DNA of 64,000 nucleotides, taken from assembly GCF_030581075.1 (NCBI RefSeq), contig NZ_JAUQSW010000004.1, positions 310,001 to 374,000 on the forward strand, given 5' to 3'. Under the pieces are notes generated by a model that saw only the letters and a program-made list of their open reading frames with translations, was not told the origin of the DNA and did no database searches. Below are positions 11,509 to 64,000 of the stretch, piece after piece. Positions within the stretch are counted from its first letter, which is position 1; each line of letters opens with the position of its first letter. The translations under genes were made by a program, and so were the position numbers. The stretch comes from Hymenobacter cheonanensis. GTDB lineage: Bacteria > Bacteroidota > Bacteroidia > Cytophagales > Hymenobacteraceae.

Positions 11509-11630
11509 AAGCACAAAACGGCTGTCATGCTGAACGCAGTGAAGCATTTCGCTCGCATCGTGAGGGTAGTGACCCAGGCGGCGCGAGCGAGATGCTTCAC
11601 TGCGTTCAGCATGACAGCCGTTTTGTGCTT
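11509..11630. repeat. TCATGCTGAACGCAGTGAAGCAT palindrome, copy 1
   Basis: The arms begin AAGCACAAAACGGCTGTC and end with its exact reverse complement; the core is the CATGCTGAACGCAGTGAAGC / GCTTCACTGCGTTCAGCATG pairing. It lies between the GH30 and GH5 genes. Related copies are at 50420, 55225, 59552 and 62999. Confidence 0.92.
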
Positions 11631-50419: not shown

Positions 50420-50513
50420 CGTCATGCTGAGCGCAGCCGAAGCATCTTGATAGGGTGCTGCCAAACGGGTGGCCAAGATGCTTCGACTCCGCTCCGCTAC
50501 GTTCAGCATGACG
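50420..50513. repeat. TCATGCTGAGCGCAG palindrome, copy 2
   Basis: The left arm CGTCATGCTGAGCGCAGCCG and AAGCATCTTG pairs with the right arm CAAGATGCTTCG...GTTCAGCATGACG. The right arm has extra bases (ACTCCGCTCCGCTAC), so the hairpin is asymmetrical. It lies between the SDR and cupin genes. Confidence 0.85.
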
Positions 50514-59551: not shown

Positions 59552-59654
59552 ACGCCTGTCATGCTGAACGCAGTGAAGCATCTCGCTCACATCGCTAGGG
59601 TAGTAATCCAACGATGCGGGCGAGATGCTTCACTGCGTTCAGCGTGACAGGCGT
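59552..59654. repeat. TCATGCTGAACGCAGTGAAGCAT palindrome, copy 4
   Basis: Arms of 35 bp (59552-59586 and 59620-59654) begin ACGCCTGTCATGCTGAACGC and contain a single mismatch (CATG against CGTG in the right arm). The inner part CAGTGAAGCATCTCGC matches copy 1. It lies between the GFOR-like and glycosidase genes. Confidence 0.93.
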
Positions 59655-61895: not shown

Positions 61896-61923
61896 AACAA
61901 GGGATAAAAAGCAGCCAGGAAAC

Positions 61924-61953
61924 TTGCCAGTTTGAAATTCCTGCCTACCTTGC
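61924..61953 (+). promoter_or_regulatory. Candidate promoter of the pheA attenuator transcript
   Basis: TTG at 61924-61926 and TACCTTGC at 61946-61953 are separated by 19 bp, close to the Bacteroidota TTG-N17-23-TAnnTTTG pattern, with mismatches in the -7 box. Transcription would start about 10-15 nt before the leader-peptide ATG. This is a weak match. Confidence 0.35.
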
Positions 61954-61973
61954 CACCCAATTCGACCAGTATC

Positions 61974-62027
61974 ATGTTCAGCAACCGCTACTTTTTTGGC
62001 TTCTATTATTTTACGCCGCCCGCGTAG
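61974..62027 (+). CDS. Phe/Tyr-rich leader peptide of the pheA attenuator
   Basis: ATG at 61974 to TAG at 62025-62027 encodes MFSNRYFFGFYYFTPPA, 17 residues. Five are Phe and three are Tyr, and seven of these eight are packed between positions 6 and 13. The plan resembles the E. coli PheL leader (a Phe-run peptide ending near Pro). Translation of the run would stall when charged tRNA-Phe or tRNA-Tyr is scarce. The stop codon lies at the start of a segment that pairs with the downstream terminator arm. No Shine-Dalgarno sequence is obvious, which is normal in Bacteroidota. It lies 112 bp before the pheA start. Confidence 0.88.
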   Translation: MFSNRYFFGFYYFTPPA

Positions 62028-62097
62028 AACGAGTCGCCATGTAGCTAAGCCACTGAAATTTAGCAGCGCCACTCGTTCTTCGGGTGGCGCTTTTTTT
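62026..62097 (+). promoter_or_regulatory. Transcription attenuator: antiterminator/terminator pair ahead of pheA
   Basis: Terminator: arms 62065-62075 and 62081-62091 form an 11-bp stem (AGCGCCAC core with GTGGCGCT, one T-G wobble) with loop TTCTT, followed by seven T residues (62091-62097). Antiterminator: AGAACGAGT at 62026-62034, which starts on the leader stop codon, is the exact reverse complement of ACTCGTTCT at 62071-62079, which lies across the terminator arm and loop. The two pairings exclude each other. A ribosome stalled on the Phe/Tyr codons leaves 62026-62034 free (read-through); one at the stop codon covers it (termination). A small helper hairpin GCTAA/TTAGC lies at 62044-62064. 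Confidence 0.87.
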
Positions 62098-62139
62098 ATG
62101 TTTTGCCGCTGGGCCAGCGCCCATCTTTTCCTTATCGCC

Positions 62140-63045
62140 ATGCCGCAGCACGTTGCCATTCAAGGGTTCAAAGGGAGTTTCCACGAAGTAGCTGCCCGCC
62201 AGTATTTCGGCGCGGCGCCTGCCCTGAATTTCTGCGCCACCTTTGGCGAGGTAGTGGCCCAGGTAGCCGATGGCCGCGCCGATGCCGCTCTCATGGCGAT
62301 GGAAAACTCGCTGGCTGGCAGTATTTTACCTAATTATCTGCTGCTGGAGCGCAACGCGCTCACCATCACCGGCGAGATTTACCTGCCCATTCACCAGCAC
62401 CTGCTGGCGCTGCCGGGCACCACGCTGGCCGATATTGAGGCCGTCCATTCGCACCCCATGGCCCTGCGCCAGTGCGGCGATTACCTGAGCCAATACCCTG
62501 GCTGGCAGCTGGTTGAAACCGAGGATACCGGCCTCAGCGCCCAGCTGCTGGCCGAGCGCCAAACTCCTGGCGTGGCCGTAATAGCCGGCGCCCAGGCTGC
62601 CGAGGCCTTCGGCCTGCAGATACTAGCCCTCGCCATCAACGACGACCCAAGCAACTACACCCGCTTTCTGGTGCTGGAGCGGGCCGCCGAGGCCCAGCCG
62701 GTGGCTAGCCCCGATAAGGCGTCGCTGTACTTCTACACCTCGCACGCGCCGGGCATGCTGGCGCGGGTGCTCACGCTGGTGGCTGGCCACGGCCTGAATT
62801 TGAGTAAGTTGCAGTCGTGCCCCCGACCCAGCCAGCCCTGGCACTACGGCTTCCACGCCGATGTAGAATTTGCCACGCCCACCCAGCTAGACGCTCTGCT
62901 GGCCGAGCTGCCCGCCGTGACCGAAGAGCTGCGCGTGCTGGGTACTTACCAACGCGGCAGCATGGTGTTTGGGCAGGATGAGACTGGGGAGAACCACCGC
63001 GGTCGTCATGCTGAACGCAGTGAAGCAGCTCATTTGGTGCAGTAA
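62140..63045 (+). CDS. pheA: Prephenate dehydratase with ACT domain
   Basis: This 301-residue monofunctional enzyme converts prephenate to phenylpyruvate in phenylalanine synthesis. The dehydratase domain covers about 4-180: VAIQGFKGSFHEVAA, ADAALMAMENSLAGSILPNY, and the catalytic T174-R-F in SNYTRFLVLE. The regulatory ACT domain is at about 195-275 with HAPGMLARVLTLVAGHGLNL and the Phe-binding-like LQSCPRP. No chorismate mutase domain is present. The ATG at 62140 follows the attenuator; an upstream TTG-started frame would read through the terminator. The last 14 residues (GRHAERSEAAHLVQ) are encoded by a palindromic repeat. An aminotransferase follows, so the pair makes Phe (and perhaps Tyr). 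Confidence 0.96.
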   Translation: MPQHVAIQGFKGSFHEVAARQYFGAAPALNFCATFGEVVAQVADGRADAALMAMENSLAGSILPNYLLLERNALTITGEIYLPIHQHLLALPGTTLADIEAVHSHPMALRQCGDYLSQYPGWQLVETEDTGLSAQLLAERQTPGVAVIAGAQAAEAFGLQILALAINDDPSNYTRFLVLERAAEAQPVASPDKASLYFYTSHAPGMLARVLTLVAGHGLNLSKLQSCPRPSQPWHYGFHADVEFATPTQLDALLAELPAVTEELRVLGTYQRGSMVFGQDETGENHRGRHAERSEAAHLVQ

Positions 63046-63112
63046 ATCAATCGTTGAGTGCCAACCGAACGGTGCAGGCGAGATGCTTCACTGTGTTCAG
63101 CATGACGACCGC
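62999..63112. repeat. TCATGCTGAACGCAGTGAAGCA palindrome, copy 5, overlapping the pheA 3' end
   Basis: The 29-bp arms 62999-63027 and 63084-63112 (starting GCGGTCGTCATGCTGAACGC) match except for one base (CTGTGTTC against CTGCGTTC). The left arm is inside the pheA reading frame and supplies its C-terminal codons; the stop lies in the loop. The aminotransferase gene starts 17 bp after the right arm. Confidence 0.93.
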
Positions 63113-63129
63113 TTTTAGTGAATAATGTA

Positions 63130-64000
63130 ATGCAAGTTTCCACTGCCAGCCGCCTGGCTCACACCGGCGAATACTACTTCTCGCGCAAGCTGCGCGAGCT
63201 AGCCGCCCTCAACGCGGCGGGGGCCAATATTATCAGCCTGGGCATTGGCAGCCCCGATTTGCCGCCGCACCCAAGCGTGGTGGCCGCGCTGGCCGCCACC
63301 GCCAGCCAGCCGGGCGCCCACGGCTACCAGAGCTACCAGGGCACACCGGCTCTGCGGCAGGCAATGGCTGCTTTTTACCAGAAAAGCTACGGCGTGGCCC
63401 TCGACCCCGCTACCGAGGTGCTGCCCCTGGCCGGCTCTAAAGAAGGCCTGATGCACATCGGCATGGCTTTTTTGGAAGCGGGCGACGCGGTGCTCATTCC
63501 CAACCCCGGCTACCCGACTTACCGGGCGGTGGCTGAAATCTGCGGGGCTGAAGTGCGCGAGTACGACCTGACCGCCGCCACCGGCTGGCTGCCCGATTTA
63601 GATGCGCTGGCCCAGAGCGACTTGCGCCGCGTGAAGCTGATGCTCGTCAACTACCCGCACATGCCCACCGGCACGCCGGCTAGCCCCGAGTTTCTGCAAA
63701 AGCTGGTCGAGTTTGCTGCCACCCACAACATTATGCTGGTGCACGACAACCCGTATGGCTTCGTGCTGAACGAGACGCCGCCCACGAGTTTGCTCAGCAT
63801 TCCGGGCGCTAAGGAAGTAGCGCTGGAGCTTAACTCGCTCAGCAAGAGCCACAACCTGGCGGGCTGGCGCGTAGGAATGCTGGTGGGCCGCGCCGACTGG
63901 CTGACGGAGGTGCTGCGCTTCAAGAGCAACATGGATTCGGGGATGTTTCTGGGAACTCAGCAGGCTGCCGTGGCCGCGCTGGCACTGGGCGAGGAGTGGT
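63130..64000 (+). CDS. Class I/II aminotransferase, 3' end cut by window edge
   Basis: The ATG at 63130 opens a frame that runs to the end of the window (290 codons visible). Fold type I features are GSPDLPPHPSVVAALAATAS, HGYQSYQGTPALRQAMAAFY, PNPGYPTYRAVAEICGAEV, VNYPHMPTGTPASPEFLQKL, HDNPYGFVLN, and the PLP-lysine motif SLSKSHNLAGWRVGML (K239). It resembles aspartate/aromatic and LL-DAP-type aminotransferases. NYPHMPTG in place of the usual NPNNPTG is characteristic of a Bacteroidota subgroup found beside pheA. The likely reaction is phenylpyruvate (or 4-hydroxyphenylpyruvate) to Phe (or Tyr). It is 84 bp after pheA, with the palindromic repeat in between, and would be under the same attenuator. 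Confidence 0.93.
   Translation, partial: MQVSTASRLAHTGEYYFSRKLRELAALNAAGANIISLGIGSPDLPPHPSVVAALAATASQPGAHGYQSYQGTPALRQAMAAFYQKSYGVALDPATEVLPLAGSKEGLMHIGMAFLEAGDAVLIPNPGYPTYRAVAEICGAEVREYDLTAATGWLPDLDALAQSDLRRVKLMLVNYPHMPTGTPASPEFLQKLVEFAATHNIMLVHDNPYGFVLNETPPTSLLSIPGAKEVALELNSLSKSHNLAGWRVGMLVGRADWLTEVLRFKSNMDSGMFLGTQQAAVAALALGEEW

Follow-up and report, generated by a model that had tools for sequence, protein, structure and literature searches.

A putative phenylalanine- and tyrosine-reading attenuator ahead of the pheA operon in Hymenobacter, with a second such leader in many relatives

Leader-peptide attenuation is a textbook mechanism, and in the pheA leader of E. coli it involves an open reading frame (ORF) with runs of regulatory codons, a T-tailed terminator and a competing antiterminator. 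Is pheA of Hymenobacter cheonanensis controlled by the same logic and, if so, does its leader sense phenylalanine alone or tyrosine as well? We addressed this question in a 64,000-nucleotide stretch of the genome (positions 310,001 to 374,000 of contig NZ_JAUQSW010000004.1; hereafter, the window), for which an earlier note had proposed PheL-type control of pheA and the following aminotransferase. The structural claims of that note were borne out: a 17-codon frame with 5 Phe and 3 Tyr codons lies at 61974-62027, a T-tailed terminator with an 11-bp stem at 62065-62091, and the 9-mers at 62026-62034 and 62071-62079 are perfect reverse complements of each other. The end coordinate it gave, 62139, is the base preceding the ATG of pheA (62140). 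The parts of the locus are as follows.

61946..61953, + strand: candidate -7-like promoter box TACCTTGC (TAnnTTGY/TAnnTTTG type), from sequence
61974..62027, + strand: leader peptide ORF MFSNRYFFGFYYFTPPA with stop codon, with counterparts in relatives
61989..62012, + strand: regulatory run, codons 6-13 (TAC TTT TTT GGC TTC TAT TAT TTT), from the codon list and from folding with the A-site on codons 6-11
62009..62029, + strand: tight hairpin TTTTACGC/GCGTAGAA spanning the end of the leader ORF (MFE fold; helix 1 of alignment A2), a candidate pause or competitor hairpin
62026..62034, + strand: predicted antiterminator 5' arm AGAACGAGT, overlapping the stop codon (62025-62027); duplex of -16.1 kcal/mol
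62040..62045, + strand: TGTAGC box, columns at least 90% invariant in alignment A2
62044..62064, + strand: inner hairpin GCTAA/TTAGC within the antiterminator loop, from sequence; similar in several rows of the window's clade in A2
62065..62091, + strand: intrinsic terminator hairpin, 11-bp stem (-20.3 kcal/mol; helix 2 of A2), with a T tail at 62092-62097
62140..63045, + strand: pheA, prephenate dehydratase (PDT, PF00800; ACT match below cut-off)
63130..64000, + strand: class I/II aminotransferase (PF00155), extending past the window end; order kept in relatives

We consider it very likely that these parts make up a ribosome-mediated transcription attenuator of the operon pheA-aminotransferase-tyrA-DAHPS/CM, reading the charging of both tRNA-Phe and tRNA-Tyr. 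The basis of this reading is the sequence parts themselves, their conservation, covariation and spacing, the set of genes in the operon and the disappearance of Phe codons where pheA was lost; from these we infer ribosome stalling, transcription-translation coupling, termination in vivo and a response to starvation. The locus combines a short codon-rich ORF, an intrinsic terminator before pheA and a covarying antiterminator (weak in four frame-shifted loci). The 244-nt intergenic region was dinucleotide-shuffled 2000 times, and no shuffle equalled the aromatic run (ATG frame, 7/10 aromatic) or the terminator score. When the leader tail was shuffled 20000 times, a 9-nt complement to the 5' half of the terminator appeared in 24 cases. 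Three terminator-like sites fell in a 400-nt region, as against 0.5 expected from shuffles. A sigma-70 promoter scan of this region of the window found none; the TACCTTGC box is a candidate whose promoter function is presumed from sequence.

How the switch might operate was explored by folding the leader behind a virtual ribosome, whose edge was placed, by assumption, 12 nt 3' of the first A-site nucleotide. On this assumption, the spacing is such that a stalled ribosome would expose the antiterminator arm and a finishing one would cover it. With the A-site on codons 6-11, the full-length equilibrium fold held 9/9 antiterminator and 0/11 terminator pairs; with the A-site at the stop codon, the antiterminator fell to 0 and the terminator was complete (11/11). 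On codons 12-14, the antiterminator formed only before the 3' arm was made, the full-length fold reverting to the terminator; at this early stage it was partial for codons 15-16 (7 and 4 of 9) and gone for codon 17 or the stop codon. The main switch therefore resembles that of the classic model. When the ribosome was absent or had stalled on codons 1-5, 8-9 of 9 antiterminator pairs formed before the 3' arm was made, whereas the full-length fold was the terminator; because of this conflict, kinetics would be expected to decide the outcome when the leader is not translated, even though the terminator state would be the most stable one for the full-length leader. We thus picture the following sequence of events. 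When Phe and Tyr are plentiful, the leading ribosome would arrive at the stop codon (62025-62027) and cover 62026-62034, upon which the terminator at 62065-62091 would form and transcription would stop. When either amino acid is short, the ribosome would stall in codons 6-13 and leave 62026-62034 free to pair with 62071-62079, the strand inside the terminator that is shared by both states of the switch; this would break the terminator and let the polymerase continue into pheA.

Which genes would such a switch serve? The aminotransferase start at 63130 was set by comparison with relatives (the ORF as called mechanically begins at 63118), and the gene is followed in the window's genome (L001) by tyrA, encoding prephenate dehydrogenase (PF02153, PF20463), and by a DAHP synthase fused to chorismate mutase (DAHPS/CM; PF00793, PF01817 CM_2). 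This order was kept in 74/74 loci with more than 4.5 kb of downstream sequence; of five loci with less, one had all three downstream genes, three had fewer and one had none. Gene content and order therefore indicate one operon that serves both Phe and Tyr, as had been supposed from the mixed codon run alone, and this content suits a mixed sensor.

The leader is widespread. From a locus scan, the best 80 of 393 loci were kept, of which 73 are from Hymenobacter/Hymenobacteraceae and seven from others (three Flavisolibacter, two Chitinophaga, one Ferruginibacter and one uncultured Chitinophagaceae). At least one F/Y-rich leader precedes pheA in all 79 of these best-scoring loci that have upstream sequence (L067 has none). 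The earlier note had suggested aligning relatives in search of conserved aromatic codons and compensatory changes in the stems, and conservation of the run is what these 79 loci display. Of 101 Hymenobacter genomes searched for element 1 (the leader nearest the promoter-like box) and PheA, 90 have PheA, and every one of these gave a strong leader match, which in G364 lies on a different contig. A box of the form [TC]AnnTT[TG]N lies within 60 nt upstream of the first leader in 71/73 Hymenobacter loci (shuffled mean 13), most commonly at -28.

Beyond the genus, we sampled 296 Bacteroidota genomes, 258 of which have PheA at E<=1e-20, and examined the upstream sequence in 89 of these, namely 69 that ranked highest for PheA (two rows being passed over) and 20 from further down. 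Among 65 top-scoring loci, two of them from Hymenobacter, an ATG-initiated leader in which 5/10 or more residues are aromatic is present in 60, with a folded terminator in 59 of these. L123 has an aromatic leader that begins with GTG, L176 has nothing but a GTG frame that lacks a terminator, and in L168-L170, high-scoring loci with pheA, no leader-like frame was found; these last four (L168, L169, L170 and L176) are genomes of the same order (f16), with pheA and without a convincing leader. None of the remaining 24 of the 89 loci has a leader. Judged by kinship codes, the reach of these matches suggests that single attenuators occur well outside Hymenobacter. Every terminator-bearing leader in the pheA-bearing set has at least two Phe and at least two Tyr codons.

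In Hymenobacter itself, 75 loci were compared (the window, 72 from the best 80 of 393 and two from the phylum sample), and 57 of them have, between terminator 1 and pheA, a further F/Y-rich leader followed by a terminator of its own (element 2); L064, whose second element has lost its stop, is left out of the 57. The window has one element only, and the element 2 model finds no match in its genome. Covariance models of elements 1 and 2 matched 95 (strongly, E<=3.3e-8) and 71 (E<=3.4e-7) of the 101 Hymenobacter genomes, respectively, with the models built from loci that overlap the searched set. A promoter-like box precedes element 2 in just 6/55 cases, under the shuffled mean of 10.7, as compared to 71/73 for element 1; element 2 is therefore probably transcribed only via element 1. 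On a tree of three downstream proteins, rooted on Flavisolibacter and with L055 absent, the single-element genomes form two clades among the tandem ones, one of them the window's, and the simplest reading is that the window's clade lost its second element. On a PheA tree, going between one and two leaders takes at least 8 changes, 5 of them forced by starred branches. Terminators of single-element genomes are stronger (median -21.0, n=18, including L064) than the first terminators of tandem genomes (-16.7, n=55), and compensation is offered as a suggestion only, because there are just two loss events. Outside Hymenobacter, five of the seven loci among the best 80 of 393 have one leader and two, both from Chitinophaga (L106, L111), have two F/Y-rich leader frames upstream of pheA. 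L156, from an f21 genome, likewise carries two such frames, with no terminator folded for the second. The doubled leaders in these three may have been inherited or reflect repeated doubling.

Loss of pheA provides a natural experiment on what the codons are for. Fourteen of 120 Hymenobacter genomes have no PDT match; three of the 14 are outside the 101 searched earlier, two of these being only 81% complete. In five (G004, G339, G346, G355, G383), aminotransferase-tyrA-DAHPS/CM still sits behind the leader or leaders, with short ends of pheA remaining in G004; since they occupy four places on the three-protein tree, pheA was lost at least four times. The four tandem genomes without pheA have 2-3 Phe codons from residue 5 on, compared to 5-12 (mean 8.07) in the 57 tandem genomes with pheA, and 8-10 Tyr codons compared to 6-11 (mean 8.16). 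Their Phe share differs at p=0.00045 (Mann-Whitney, uncorrected for kinship). At sites conserved in pheA-bearing relatives, 20/27 Phe but 8/34 Tyr were lost over three lineages (Fisher p=1e-4); with one of two sisters dropped, the losses were 14/20 and 5/25 (p=0.001). In the pheA-bearing rows, changes affected 2/66, 5/21, 9/84 and 5/21 cells at Phe sites and 20/110, 4/28, 11/84 and 4/21 cells at Tyr sites. The loss in G339 falls chiefly in the second leader. G004, the fourth loss, has no reduction in Phe codons (4 Phe and 3 Tyr codons are kept), as would be expected of a recent event. The pheA-less genomes have weaker antiterminator arms (-8.9 to -13.5 kcal/mol, from a different terminator finder than the arm-swap set below and thus only roughly comparable), so some of what changed may reflect general decay rather than an effect specific to Phe. 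Six other near-complete Hymenobacter genomes (G007, G016, G335, G396, G377, G381) have neither PDT nor a match to the window's TyrA; no strong leader match was found in them, two having weak ones (E 0.005-0.008), and these organisms may be auxotrophic for Phe and Tyr or rely on a different route. Seven pheA-less Bacteroidota outside Hymenobacter gave no TyrA match, in a search set without a positive, and the answer for G419, G420 and G424 was empty, likewise from a set without a positive.

These data bear on the best-surviving alternative, namely that the leader senses Phe alone, as a PheL-like attenuator in which the Tyr codons are incidental. That pheA is the first structural gene would fit this, as would the E. 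coli precedent, PheL sensing Phe only. Yet the two or more Tyr codons in all terminator-bearing leaders of the pheA-bearing set, the presence of tyrA in the same operon and the behaviour of pheA-less lineages, where Tyr codons stay in the range of their pheA-bearing relatives while Phe codons drop below the minimum of 5 found there, speak against it, and we regard a Phe-only sensor as improbable. The earlier proposal that Tyr is sensed besides Phe is thereby strengthened. Going further, we lean towards the view that the tandem elements are two independent attenuators in series which read the same two amino acids; that element 2, lacking a promoter-like box of its own, is probably reached only via element 1, so that transcription would pass two ribosome checkpoints; that the terminator remaining after loss of an element tends to be stronger; and that the run is tuned by the products of the operon, three independent pheA-less lineages having shifted from a Phe-plus-Tyr sensor towards a Tyr sensor.

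The pairings were compared across relatives as well. A terminator was folded for 197/203 leaders, and we looked for the best gapless pairing of the sequence 3' of the last aromatic codon with the 5' half of the terminator. Relative to the first base of that codon, this helix starts at a median of 14 nt for both element 1 (n=75) and element 2 (n=57) and at 12 nt in single leaders of other Bacteroidota (n=58), with individual values of 5 to 24 over all groups; the window's arm begins at 16 nt. Individual antiterminator helices are often short, and they beat shuffles at p<=0.05 in 39/75, 21/57 and 52/58 cases, respectively. Arm covariation was tested by in silico swapping, because the antiterminator arm is misaligned between clades in A2, a MAFFT alignment. 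Cognate arm-terminator duplexes were stronger than swapped ones (-16.34 vs -10.4 kcal/mol; 141 unique), and in each of seven tests 0/500 permutations equalled the cognate pairing, kinship being uncorrected. In the 57 tandem genomes, arm 1 favours terminator 1 in 51 and arm 2 favours terminator 2 in 54. For the end-of-ORF hairpin and the terminator together, 97.5% of cells in A2 are paired (slid controls 30-61%) and 28 are changed on both sides, versus 8.6 in shuffles; the hairpin (helix 1) is 95.8% paired, with 3/5 pairs changed on both sides, and the terminator (helix 2) 98.6%. Compensatory change in the stems, the second expectation for the relatives, was thus found for both sets of pairings, and together with the conserved run and the operon content it favours, at the level of sequence, PheL-type logic upstream of pheA and the aminotransferase. 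The TGTAGC box, which lies in element 1 shortly 3' of the leader stop, may mark a pause site for RNA polymerase or pair with GCTAC in the leader. In one clade (L068, L070, L091, L104, L202), the frame of the element 1 leader is altered after the hairpin, which is kept in changed form, and these leaders read through the antiterminator arm up to the TAG of the TGTAG(C/T) box; in L068, L070, L091 and L104, the element 1 helix is 4-5 bp in the ungapped test.

Could the short ORF instead encode a functional small peptide? Its presence in all 79 loci with upstream sequence among the best 80 of 393 would be compatible with this. What recurs, though, are aromatic codons and RNA arms; four leaders (L068, L070, L091, L104) change frame after the hairpin while the hairpin persists, and Phe residues are replaced once pheA is lost, so that we find a peptide function very improbable. 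Recurring peptide tails of relatives, e.g. KSRD or KKPARCC, overlie the antiterminator RNA arm, and this overlap may account for their recurrence.

A metabolite riboswitch or T-box overlapping the leader, with the ORF secondary, might explain the strong overall fold (z -3.87). At the gathering threshold, however, no Rfam family, T-box and riboswitch families included, matched the window or ten relatives, and the conserved columns of A2 are those of the codons, hairpin, arms, terminator and TGTAGC box; we therefore give this explanation hardly any weight. Least credible of all is that the hairpin merely ends transcription of the preceding gene, the aromatic frame having arisen by chance, for common as T-tailed hairpins are between same-strand genes, the run was absent from all 2000 shuffles, frame, spacing and arms recur across the genus and beyond, and a promoter-like box precedes leader 1 in 71/73 loci.

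The attenuator reading also agrees with the best sub-threshold Rfam match to 61900-62160, Phe_leader (RF01859), which covers the whole model at 25.7 bits (E 0.021), below the cut-off of 55. The window's leader works like Phe_leader and is not a member of that family. It shares with the enterobacterial pheA leader an ORF before pheA, a terminator and a competing antiterminator, and differs in combining Phe with Tyr codons, in the presence of tyrA and DAHP synthase in the operon and in that Hymenobacter relatives often have two elements in series.

In our literature search, no paper on leader-peptide attenuation in Hymenobacter was found; a 2010 survey by Lopatovskaya and colleagues may already list Bacteroidota cases. 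Novelty was judged against the accessible parts of PMC9723704, PMC7366714, PMC3641672, PMC2965389, PMC4833913, PMC1183508, PMC2864571 and PMC4974804, and the state of attenuation surveys is represented by two of these (PMC2965389, PMC4833913). According to another survey from 2010, leader-peptide attenuation was then known only in Proteobacteria and Actinobacteria, to which that survey added hisS of Bacilli (PMC2965389). Closest to the present case, clues for leader-peptide attenuation before amino-acid operons were described in Flavobacterium psychrophilum, including an element 5' of pheA that is also present in other Flavobacteriaceae genera and without Rfam hits; that element is from the same phylum, and the accessible portions of the paper name neither its codons and arms nor Tyr sensing, tandem arrangement or Hymenobacter (PMC9723704). 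Small ORFs in Bacteroides leaders are noted in a further paper (PMC7366714). The Bacteroid-trp motif (RF01692) is listed as a candidate cis-regulatory RNA of Bacteroidota (PMC2864571); it has no match in the window at either threshold tried. For tandem arrangements, a paper on Salmonella mgtCBR describes two short leader ORFs in tandem ahead of a single operon, with separate attenuator logic and responding to ATP and proline, and terms this a singular example (PMC3641672). There the two signals differ, whereas both Hymenobacter elements are Phe/Tyr-rich and precede a biosynthetic operon; such a tandem is present in 57/75 Hymenobacter loci and absent from the window, which has one element.

Across much of the Bacteroidota, attenuation with dual Phe/Tyr input seems to be a regular means of controlling aromatic synthesis, which would imply that ribosome and polymerase remain coupled in this phylum. 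A serial double attenuator, if true, would need this coupling to be tight, and it raises the quantitative question of whether two like checkpoints multiply the dynamic range. The pheA losses, in turn, may be viewed as rare natural mutagenesis of regulatory codons, in which the sensor code follows operon content.

Separately from the leader, palindromic units of 91-102 nt whose arms are GTCATGCTGAACnnAGTGAAGC occur at three scattered places in the window (11524-11615, 59558-59648 and 63005-63106), and a single such arm lies at 50491-50512. The arm has 7 matches with up to 3 mismatches in the window, versus a mean of 0.00 in shuffles. The unit at 63005-63106 lies at the junction of pheA and the aminotransferase gene, where its first arm encodes part of the C-terminal tail of PheA.
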